From: Sphingobacterium thalpophilum
GTDB lineage: Bacteria > Bacteroidota > Bacteroidia > Flavobacteriales > Flavobacteriaceae
Length of the DNA: 10,964 nt
Direction of reading: 5' to 3'
Assembly (NCBI GenBank): GCA_943328865.2
Contig: CALQBR020000018.1
Span: forward strand, 1-10,964
Below the pieces are notes generated by a model. It was given only the letters and a program-made list of their open reading frames with translations. It ran no database searches and was not told the origin of the DNA. This document shows, piece after piece, positions 3,365 to 10,421 of the stretch. Positions within the stretch are counted from its first letter, which is position 1. Every line of letters starts with the position of its first letter. The position numbers and the translations under genes were made by a program.

Positions 3365-3426
3365 GAAAATCTAGACCACACTAATCGTGTAGGTCTAAAA
3401 AGATGTTCTTTAATCCTATTGATAAA

Positions 3427-3467
3427 ATGCCGTGCTTTTCTATCGAAAAGCACGGCATTTTTATTTT
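3427..3467 (+). terminator. Intrinsic terminator of the superoxide dismutase gene
   Basis: A perfect 14-bp stem (ATGCCGTGCTTTTC at 3427-3440 with its complement at 3445-3458) has a TATC loop and is followed by TTTTATTTT. Three further A-T pairs extend the stem outward. The A-run on the left arm would also give a short U-run on the minus strand, so it may back up termination of the convergent purF-like transcript. Confidence 0.88.
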
Positions 3468-7997: not shown

Positions 7998-8234
7998 ATG
8001 TCAGACATTGCATCAAGAGTAAAAGCGATTATCGTAGACAAATTAGGCGTTGACGAGAACGAAGTTGTAACAGAAGCTAGCTTCACGAATGATTTAGGAG
8101 CTGATTCATTAGACACTGTTGAGCTTATCATGGAGTTTGAAAAAGAATTTGATATCCAAATTCCAGACGACCAAGCTGAAAACATTGCTACTGTAGGTCA
8201 AGCAATTTCTTACATCGAAGAAGCAAAAAAATAA
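7998..8234 (+). CDS. acpP: Acyl carrier protein
   Basis: This 78-residue acidic protein carries growing acyl chains on 4'-phosphopantetheine during fatty-acid synthesis in the cytoplasm. The attachment serine is Ser37 in the classical [14 protein letters not shown] motif. Helix II after it is rich in acidic residues, the face that docks with partner enzymes such as FabF. Length and sequence are typical, with nothing missing. It is the first gene of the plus-strand cluster acpP-fabF-rnc. It is followed by a terminator-like hairpin, so much of its transcript may end before fabF, which fits the far greater need for ACP than for the synthase (inference). Confidence 0.97.
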
Positions 8235-8242
8235 TACATTTT

Positions 8243-8284
8243 ACACCCGTAGGCCTAAACGTTTGCGGGTGTTATTATTTTTTT
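8243..8284 (+). terminator. Terminator-like hairpin after acpP
   Basis: ACACCCG (8243-8249) pairs with CGGGTGT (8266-8272) around a 16-base loop, followed by TATTATTTTTTT. It starts 9 bases after the acpP stop. Because fabF follows on the same strand without a full promoter that I can see, partial termination is likely. Confidence 0.65.
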
Positions 8285-8384: not shown

Positions 8385-8417
8385 TTTGTTTTGATTGATA
8401 ACTATAAAATGACACGT

Positions 8418-9671
8418 ATGGAATTAAGGCGAGTTGTAGTAACAGGTTTAGGTGCACTTACCCCTATTGGAAATAACATTCAAGAATATTGGAATGGACT
8501 AATTAACGGTGTTAGTGGTGCTGCTCCCATTACTTATTTTGATGCTTCAAAGTTTAAAACGCAGTTTGCCTGTGAATTAAAAGGTTTCAAAGTCGAGGAT
8601 TTCATGGATCGAAAAGAAGCGCGAAAAATGGACCGTTATGCACAGTATGCCTTGGTTTCATCAGACGAAGCGGTTCGTGATGCTAATTTTGATTTAGACA
8701 AATTAGACAAAGACAGAGTGGGTGTAATTTGGGGATCTGGGATTGGTGGCTTAGAGACTTTCCAAATCGAAATGCTCGATTTCGCTAAAGGAGATGGAAC
8801 ACCAAGATTCAATCCTTTCTTTATTCCAAAGATGATTTCTGATATTGCTTGTGGACATATTTCTATAAAATATGGCTTTAGAGGTCCTAACTTTGCAACT
8901 GTTTCTGCTTGTGCTTCCTCTACCAATGCGATCATTGACGCTTTCAATTATATCCGATTAGGTCATGCTGATGCTATGATAACTGGTGGTTCTGAAGCCG
9001 CAGTTACCATTGCTGGAATGGGTGGTTTCAACGCCATGCATGCCTTATCCACTAGAAATGACGACCCAAAAACAGCTTCAAGACCAATGGATAAAGACCG
9101 TGACGGATTTGTTTTAGGAGAAGGTGCAGGGGCTTTAGTTTTAGAAGAATACGAACACGCTATTGCTCGTGGGGCTACTATTTACTGCGAAATTGGCGGT
9201 GGTGGAATGTCTGCCGATGCGCATCATATTACCGCACCACATCCTGAAGGATTGGGCGCTAAAAACGTAATGATCAACTGTTTGCGCGATGCAGGATTAA
9301 AACCAACTGATGTTGATGGCGTGAATATGCACGGAACGTCAACGCCTCTTGGAGATATCGCAGAAAGCAAAGCCATTCTTCATGTTTTTGGCGAACATGC
9401 CTACACGATGAATTTAAATTCTACCAAATCAATGACGGGGCACTTATTAGGTGCAGCCGGAGCTGTAGAAACCATTTCTTCTATCCTTTCTATAAAGCAT
9501 GGAATTGTTCCTCCTACCATCAATCATTTTACCGATGATGAGAACATTGACAACAAATTAAACTTTACTTTCAATAAAGCCCAAAAAAGAGACGTTAAGG
9601 TCCTTATGAGTAACACCTTCGGTTTTGGCGGACACAATGCTTGTGTATTGGTTAAAAAATTAGTGCTTTAA
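8418..9671 (+). CDS. fabF: Beta-ketoacyl-ACP synthase II
   Basis: FabF condenses malonyl-ACP with acyl-ACP to lengthen fatty acids by two carbons. From ATG 8418 it is 417 residues, the normal family length, and begins MELRRVVVTGLGALTPIG as FabF proteins do. ATG 8409, three codons upstream, is an alternative; a TTG at 8391 would add nine unsupported residues. The Cys-His-His catalytic triad is Cys165 (VSACASS), His305 (NMHGTST) and His342 (MTGHLLGAAG), with the conserved Lys337 before the last. The C-terminal glycine-rich NTFGFGGHN motif is present. The gene follows acpP, its direct substrate carrier, and rnc begins 9 bases after its stop, so fabF and rnc share a transcript. Confidence 0.96.
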   Translation: MELRRVVVTGLGALTPIGNNIQEYWNGLINGVSGAAPITYFDASKFKTQFACELKGFKVEDFMDRKEARKMDRYAQYALVSSDEAVRDANFDLDKLDKDRVGVIWGSGIGGLETFQIEMLDFAKGDGTPRFNPFFIPKMISDIACGHISIKYGFRGPNFATVSACASSTNAIIDAFNYIRLGHADAMITGGSEAAVTIAGMGGFNAMHALSTRNDDPKTASRPMDKDRDGFVLGEGAGALVLEEYEHAIARGATIYCEIGGGGMSADAHHITAPHPEGLGAKNVMINCLRDAGLKPTDVDGVNMHGTSTPLGDIAESKAILHVFGEHAYTMNLNSTKSMTGHLLGAAGAVETISSILSIKHGIVPPTINHFTDDENIDNKLNFTFNKAQKRDVKVLMSNTFGFGGHNACVLVKKLVL

Positions 9672-9680
9672 TACTATTCT

Positions 9681-10421
9681 ATGAATATAATCAGAAAAAT
9701 ATTTCAAAAATCCCGTACTCCAGAAGACGGGATTTTTTTTACTGATATTCAAAAAATCCTGGGTTTCAAAATCATTGACATTAGTCACTATAAAAAAGCA
9801 TTCACGCATCGTTCCTTAAGCAAAGTTGATCAAAAAGGGAATCCTATAAATTACGAAAGACTGGAATTTCTAGGAGATTCGATATTGAGCACCGTAATTG
9901 CCGCCCATCTTTTTAACAAAGCACCTGCTGGTGATGAAGGGTATTTAACAAAAATGCGTTCTAAGATTGTCAGTAGAGAACATCTGAATGAACTGGGTCG
10001 CGATTTAAATTTAGTGCAATTTATCGAAAGCAAAGTACCTGTTTTGCATTTCGGCGAAAATATCCACGGTAATCTCTTCGAAGCTTTGGTTGGCGCTGTT
10101 TTTCTTGATAGAGGCTATACTTACTGTGAAAAATTCATTCAAAAAAGAGTGATTACCCCTTATGTTGATATTGCTAAACTAGAAGGCAAAGTAATCAGTT
10201 ACAAAAGCTTGTTGATTGAGTGGTGTCAAAAGGAGAAGAAAACATTCCATTATGACGTTTATGAAGACAATGAAATTACAGGAGAACGACTCTTTGGCGT
10301 CAAATTAAGCATTGACGGAAAAGTAGTTGCAAAAGCGAGAGCGACTTCCAAAAAGAAAGCCGAAGAAAAAGCATCCCAAAGGGGCTATTTTGCTTTCCAA
10401 GAAAAAATAGACAAAAAATAA
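9681..10421 (+). CDS. rnc: Ribonuclease III
   Basis: RNase III cuts double-stranded RNA, matures rRNA precursors and trims structured mRNAs. The 246-residue protein has an N-terminal nuclease domain with the signature ERLEFLGDS (59-67; Glu62 and Asp66 as metal ligands) and GNLFEALVGAVFLD (130-143; Glu134). A double-stranded-RNA-binding domain follows at about 170-243, ending in the basic ATSKKKAEEKA helix. The position equal to E. coli Asp114 is Asn131, a change from the textbook site. Its N-terminal extension of about 20 residues is encoded by DNA that forms a perfect terminator-like hairpin (9706-9740). ATG 9681 lies 9 bases after fabF, so the two are co-transcribed. The gene order rnc then IPExxxVDY is common in Bacteroidota. 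Confidence 0.95.
   Translation: MNIIRKIFQKSRTPEDGIFFTDIQKILGFKIIDISHYKKAFTHRSLSKVDQKGNPINYERLEFLGDSILSTVIAAHLFNKAPAGDEGYLTKMRSKIVSREHLNELGRDLNLVQFIESKVPVLHFGENIHGNLFEALVGAVFLDRGYTYCEKFIQKRVITPYVDIAKLEGKVISYKSLLIEWCQKEKKTFHYDVYEDNEITGERLFGVKLSIDGKVVAKARATSKKKAEEKASQRGYFAFQEKIDKK
9706..9740 (+). terminator. Perfect intrinsic terminator structure inside the start of rnc
   Basis: AAAAATCCCGT (9706-9716) and its exact complement (9727-9737) form an 11-bp stem with a 10-base loop, ending in eight consecutive T (9733-9740). It spans roughly codons 9-20 of rnc. By sequence it is as good as any terminator in the window. It may end part of the fabF transcripts when rnc is not being translated; that role is inference. 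Confidence 0.65.

Follow-up and report, generated by a model that had tools for sequence, protein, structure and literature searches.

A conserved terminator-like hairpin within the first codons of rnc in Flavobacteriaceae and related families

In leader-peptide attenuation, as in the trp and thr leaders, the position of a ribosome decides between termination and read-through, and Streptomyces absB is autoregulated by cleavage of its own operon RNA. As far as the available portions of the reports go, Escherichia coli RNase III cleaves its own rnc 5' UTR (PMC8708148), a stem-loop inside the E. coli arfA ORF serves as an RNase III site and at the same time as a premature terminator (PMC3989581), and mapping of RNA ends in E. 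coli has found premature termination in 5' UTRs and ORFs (PMC7815308). Ribosomes of bacteria such as those considered here rarely use Shine-Dalgarno sequences, according to what was available of two further papers (PMC8710568, PMC9976891).

Here we analyse a hairpin in rnc of a member of the Flavobacteriaceae. It is internal to the ORF and not, as the RNase III site of E. coli rnc is, part of the 5' UTR; it lies in the rnc frame, with no separate short ORF before it as in leader-peptide systems. It has two structural features of an intrinsic terminator, a GC-containing stem-loop of a stability above expectation and about 7-8 U directly after the GC core (T8 at 9733-9740). We propose, with moderate confidence, that a sense-strand intrinsic terminator of moderate strength in rnc halts transcription from fabF into rnc except when a ribosome already at work early on rnc covers its left arm. 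The kind of mechanism is already known; the place and the gene are apparently new within the literature searched, where no earlier description of the rnc hairpin was found among the matches listed (titles and abstract openings) and the main text of a F. psychrophilum transcriptome paper (PMC9723704), in the portion available, has no word beginning with rnc.

Locus and structure of the hairpin

The window, that is, the whole 10,964-nucleotide stretch of DNA analysed here, comes from a genome of 62% completeness. Its rnc ATG at 9681 follows the fabF stop codon after a gap of 9 nt (Table 1), and a pattern scan listed no other terminator-like site in that gap. The profile match of the rnc product to TIGR02191 begins at residue 24, so that the hairpin codons encode a tail outside the domain. 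Given the terminator-like hairpin in the acpP/fabF gap, the acpP-fabF-rnc series may be stepped down twice. Elsewhere in the window, at 3424-3461, two convergent genes are separated by a 17-bp hairpin of very high stability (-25.7 kcal/mol), an ordinary bidirectional terminator. The promoter pattern TTTG-N17-21-TANNTTTG matched once in the window, away from this locus and at chance level.

Table 1. Coordinates of the features discussed (positions in the window)
Feature	Position	Strand	Remarks
acpP	7998..8234	+	precedes fabF
Terminator-like hairpin, ordinary, intergenic	8243..8272	+	acpP/fabF gap
fabF	8409..9671	+	directly upstream of rnc; start codon uncertain (ORF list: TTG 8391)
rnc	9681..10421	+	RNase III, by TIGR02191 profile match
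rnc codon 7, ATA (Ile)	9699..9701	+	second synonymous constraint
Left arm AAAAATCCCGT	9706..9716	+	A-tract plus TCCCGT; rnc codons 9-12
Loop	9717..9726	+	10 nt; sequence and length vary among relatives, length changes mostly multiples of 3
Right arm ACGGGATTTTT	9727..9737	+	ACGGGA plus T5
T8 (U-tract)	9733..9740	+	codons 18-20, Ile-Phe-Phe

A preliminary description had placed an 11-bp stem with a 10-base loop and eight T in codons 9-20, 26 bases past the rnc start, and these coordinates were confirmed: the left arm begins at +26 of rnc (codon 9), and codon 20 contains the end of the T-run. Of the eight T, five also form the outer A-U pairs of the 11-bp stem. RNAfold predicts two additional pairs within the loop; the fold energy is -13.1 kcal/mol (z -3.7). 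Our pattern scanner, which has a loop limit of 8, did not list this hairpin. Among relatives the stem ranges from 5 to 17 bp, and 11 bp, the length in the window, is the commonest. A known Rfam element was rejected as its identity, since the scores were all below threshold: Rfam release 15 gave no match in the window, the best score over the hairpin was 19.8 bits against a gathering threshold of 54, and scores to attenuator leaders were far below threshold.

Conservation, codon choice and rarity

A hairpin occupies the same position at the rnc 5' end in 278 of 350 loci read, a redundant set, by a definition (at least 5 bp with at least 3 GC pairs, followed by T5 or longer) that is loose and admits weak cases such as L196. 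Group labels (Flavobacterium, Flavobacteriaceae, Flavobacteriales) follow named relatives and lineage. All 80 of the nearest named relatives carry it, a biased batch picked by similarity and with one search peptide overlapping the T-run. Within the genus it is present in 12/12 new loci from a draw across the order, in 40/40 picked loci (the majority with middle to low similarity, some from genomes already sampled) and in 22/24 of the most diverged loci. A genome labelled as the laboratory species Flavobacterium johnsoniae (L046) also has the hairpin. For the family the counts are 28/28 among the most similar loci, 39/40 in the middle and 14/30 among the least similar, with 8/10 in the order draw, which shares some genomes with other batches, and 1/2 among the last ones. 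A further 21/21 came through a hairpin-peptide pattern and so prove nothing.

Other families of the Flavobacteriales carry the hairpin in 9 of 26 genomes (10/28 loci before removal of a locus that belongs to the family of the window and of a duplicate genome). It occurs in families f2, f3, f6, f8 and f13, in f6 and f8 not throughout, and is absent from f4, f7, f10, f14 and f15; outside the order none of 32 loci has it. Two f8 loci (L202, L203) have a GGTTCCCG/CGGGAAC hairpin at the same place in rnc without a T-run. On a FastTree tree of 214 proteins, hairpin presence changes at least 15 times, and 9 of the 20 family loci outside the genus that lack it come from genomes of at most 2.3 Mb. Since it has been lost in part of the family, the hairpin is not essential everywhere.

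Codon choice within the hairpin is constrained. Across 173 unique hairpins, serine is encoded by TCC in 157/161 cases and glycine by GGG in 163/164 (background 0.11 for each), isoleucine by ATT in 70/70 (background 0.54) and the first phenylalanine by TTT in 173/173 (background 0.80). The hairpin codons equal those of the window in 555 of 558 comparisons among the nearest 80 rnc genes; codons for the same kinds of amino acid in the rest of rnc do so in 43.3%. For the 24 genus loci of greatest divergence the two figures are 110/116 and 42.2%. The corresponding identity in 18 family loci without the hairpin is 17/36, against 40.4% elsewhere in rnc, with serine at 0/5, arginine at 0/3 and glycine at 0/1. 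Judged by codon identity, loss of the hairpin goes with loss of the constraint.

Relatives that encode the same peptide with synonymous changes breaking the stem were one observation that the preliminary description had named as refuting it, and we looked for them. The peptide [KN]SRxx[ED]DGxFF is present in 136 of 348 loci, and all 136 keep the TCCCG/CGGG core and a detected hairpin. The sole synonymous change in the four codons affects the third base of the arginine codon, which is T in 122 loci, C in 12 (CGC) and A in 2 (CGA); a C or A there, in 14 loci altogether, breaks a single A-U pair at the stem top. Where the peptide itself differs, it shifts together with the pairing: KSR...DGIFF (AAA TCC CGT / GAC GGG ATT), NSR...NGNFF (AAT TCC CGT / AAC GGG AAT) and NSH...DGDFF (AAT TCC CAT / GAT GGG GAT). 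These patterns point to a hairpin conserved at the RNA level and kept by selection.

Compensatory change is also seen in an alignment of 99 hairpins, where pairing holds in 89.0% of cells (shuffles 83.5%, slid controls no more than 62.8%) and 55 cells differ on both sides (21.3 in shuffles, at most 24 when slid); the pair table and alignment A1 hold only loci with a detected hairpin, so pairing is favoured, and shared ancestry of the rows inflates the covariation counts. On the tree, the A-U/U-A pair changes at least 13 times on the left and at least 8 times on the right. The most-switched pair yields 5 independent comparisons on supported branches (2.8 the same way, 0 opposite, 2.2 without difference), and the sign test is not significant, 5 supported comparisons being too few to reach significance. 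The switch from G-C to A-U is a single event on this tree.

Hairpins of this grade are rare inside coding sequence. When codons 1-26 were recoded synonymously 200,000 times at the codon frequencies of nine window ORFs, only 425 of the resulting sequences carried one of equal grade. Over 400 kb of the complete genome of a genus-mate, 33 terminator-grade matches were found (some hairpins being counted twice), of which the one fully inside an ORF is that of rnc; 20 synonymous randomisations gave a mean of 0.0 inside ORFs. Extending the scan to 1.2 Mb with 993 ORFs of at least 80 aa placed 2 of 88 such hairpins inside an ORF in the sense direction, in rnc and in an SpoU methylase ORF (L426), and the synonymous null gave none in nine of ten replicates and one in the other. 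The first domain of the SpoU methylase begins at residue 26 and an ATG stands at codon 20, after the hairpin; this ORF start is called too early, and its hairpin is thus most likely intergenic. rnc is therefore the sole ORF among the 993 with such a terminator truly internal. With looser limits, 12 of 216 hairpins in the 1.2 Mb lie inside ORFs and the null ranges from 2 to 14, so the excess is not clear and it is the strict class alone that stands out.

A model of the hairpin scored 52.5 and 48.4 bits at the two rnc sites in 411 kb and at most 26.6 bits elsewhere; no further copy came near the rnc scores. Applied to 118 genomes of the order, the model matched in 17, and in 16 of these at rnc, with strict filters that missed several genomes in which the hairpin had been read directly. 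The lone match away from rnc (L389) is an ordinary terminator between convergent genes.

Position, proposed mechanism and competing explanations

The sense T-run measures 7-9 in 235 of 258 unique 5' ends and T6 or longer in 246, and the longest stretch of A immediately preceding the stem, which the minus strand reads as its T-run, does not exceed 4 in 223; the strong direction is thus the sense one. The rnc hairpin of the genus-mate G045 (-12.9 kcal/mol) ranks 27th of the 33 matches in 400 kb, in the weaker part of that genome's range, which suits a terminator that can be passed. From the outermost GC pair to the aligned rnc start the distance is 30.0 +/- 2.3 nt, against 18.7 +/- 18.2 nt between fabF and rnc. 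Eight loci with spacers of 100-125 nt still have fabF upstream and the hairpin in rnc, and the scan found no terminator-like site in those spacers. Placement relative to the fabF stop was rejected on the steady distance to the rnc start and these long-spacer loci. Nevertheless, fabF is upstream on the same strand in 276/276 hairpin-bearing loci, no more than 30 nt away in 264 of them, so that a function for rnc cannot be told from one for fabF by gene order. Every one of the 258 unique 5' ends has an in-frame start before the hairpin, and in 257 the hairpin interrupts no reading frame.

Six loci (L110, L132, L156, L157, L188, L191) have an insert of about 90 nt between fabF and rnc, with inverted stretches like AATAAACC/GGTTTATT in several and ATCC(C/T)GAATG left before it. 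This insert resembles a small repeat element, one that has made a second copy of the start region.

A ribosome at a start codon reaches to about +15, so it would leave the left arm at +26 free and would cover it about four codons later. This geometry suggests how translation could relieve termination. RNA polymerase coming from fabF would transcribe the rnc start, then the hairpin and then U8. With no ribosome past about codon 4-5 of rnc, the hairpin would form and transcription stop, giving a transcript with its 3' end a short way into rnc. An rnc-translating ribosome would instead cover the left arm and let the polymerase pass. If the ribosome masks the left arm, full rnc mRNA depends on prompt rnc translation. 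RNase III would probably be made only if ribosomes start on the rnc message in time, and the expected outcome is RNase III that is low relative to fabF, with a control point at the rnc start that may itself be regulated, possibly by RNase III.

Codon 7 shows a further synonymous constraint, and is a possible counterpart of the control codons that stand before the hairpin in leader-peptide attenuators. It is ATA in 248 of the 256 hairpin-bearing loci with isoleucine there and in 11 of 16 loci without the hairpin, and in the sequences read it stays at this place with or without codons inserted before the hairpin. This is well in excess of background: ATA makes up 88 of 235 isoleucine codons at positions 5-9 (327 ORFs in the 400-kb genus-mate stretch) and 24 of 236 in nine window ORFs. 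In only 18 of 258 unique 5' ends is the left arm repeated, as TCCCGA or TTCCGA, ahead of the rnc start, the repeat sitting just before it in L107, L116, L119, L121 and others; this repeat could pair with the right arm. No antiterminator fold was identified in a scan that covered these left-arm repeats before the rnc start.

Control by translation has to be weighed against a constitutive partial terminator, which would end most fabF transcripts and fix the fabF:rnc ratio while translation mattered little. We hold this to be unlikely, though with real weight: fabF is the constant upstream neighbour, the hairpin is of moderate strength, and the window has no other terminator-like site between the two genes. 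A terminator that sets a ratio would, however, more simply be intergenic, like that between acpP and fabF, whereas the rnc hairpin stays about 30 nt inside the gene even behind spacers of 100-125 nt, and its in-codon position exposes it to ribosomes. It seems to us rather improbable that RNase III instead binds or cuts the hairpin, destabilising or repressing its own mRNA, with termination incidental. Usual RNase III substrates have longer stems than this hairpin of 5-17 bp (11 bp in the window), and a self-target needs no T-run, yet T6 or longer is kept in 246 of 258 5' ends; the short stem and the conserved T-run together argue that termination, not cleavage, is the selected property. Self-targeting would gain from the identity of the gene, which is rnc itself, and from E. 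coli precedents, in the portions of the reports available: RNase III acts on the 5' UTR of its own mRNA and is able to cut coding regions (PMC8708148), and the arfA stem-loop combines an RNase III site with a premature terminator (PMC3989581). The interpretation in the preliminary description, which preferred attenuation over self-cleavage, is partly supported, that preference fitting a T-tract kept with the stem, a longer T-run in sense and a constant distance to the rnc start.

An annotation error, with rnc starting after the hairpin and the latter being an ordinary intergenic fabF terminator, has very little probability. The SpoU methylase ORF is such a case, and an in-frame ATG, GTG or TTG follows the hairpin in 73 of 258 unique 5' ends, but 185 of them (by inspection also the window) have no in-frame start between hairpin and domain, the frame is open in all but one, and loop length shifts mostly by multiples of 3. 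A later rnc start was rejected on the open frame and the absent downstream starts. It is just as doubtful that the hairpin forms the 3' end of a regulatory RNA from the end of fabF, for which functional ORF-internal RNAs in E. coli offer a precedent (PMC7815308, in the portion available), or a DNA site for a protein: a spaced DNA site is at odds with a loop length that varies without loss of the hairpin. Chance or protein constraint by itself scarcely deserves consideration; the peptide is partly conserved, but rare codons are held, the peptide changes along with the pairing, and the hairpin is unique among 993 ORFs. Codon identity, the core kept in 136/136 and the synonymous nulls led us to reject it.

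Returning to termination relieved by translation, we also note a bolder and, in our estimate, unlikely extension, an autogenous switch of a new class. RNase III would sense its own level at the start of its mRNA, the in-codon terminator would read this out, and the N-terminal tail would owe its present sequence mainly to the encoding of this RNA. Sensing could occur through binding or cutting of the leader or the hairpin, or through slowed initiation, perhaps via the fixed ATA at codon 7, and failed translation would be turned at once into failed transcription.

Comparison with known systems

If the proposed mechanism holds, the gene of a global RNase would contain a terminator inside its coding sequence, conserved across much of an order, and would offer a natural reporter of transcription-translation coupling in bacteria that rarely use Shine-Dalgarno sequences. 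The N-terminal tail of the rnc product is also an instance of a protein segment shaped by an RNA signal.

As in leader-peptide attenuation, the position of a ribosome on nascent RNA would decide the outcome; the difference is that rnc has no separate leader peptide and that no antiterminator was found in the scan of left-arm repeats; the structural gene would be its own leader. The likeness to E. coli rnc autoregulation, as far as the available portion of that report shows (PMC8708148), lies in the same gene and a structure in its own mRNA, with control here putative; the cut in E. coli falls in the 5' UTR, whereas the present hairpin is terminator-shaped, with a U-tract and an 11-bp stem, inside the ORF. 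The stem-loop of arfA, in the available portion of its description (PMC3989581), likewise lies in coding sequence and causes premature transcription termination, which is putative here. It is, however, located in the 3' region of a 72-aa ORF, where RNase III cuts it, and the functional protein is the shortened one. The rnc hairpin occupies codons 9-20, so early that truncation would leave a product with none of the catalytic domain. The premature-termination sites of E. coli, in what was available of that study (PMC7815308), share a regulatory use of early termination, within an ORF or shortly ahead of it, again putative for rnc, but those sites come from mapped RNA ends, whereas the rnc hairpin is known from its conservation across an order.
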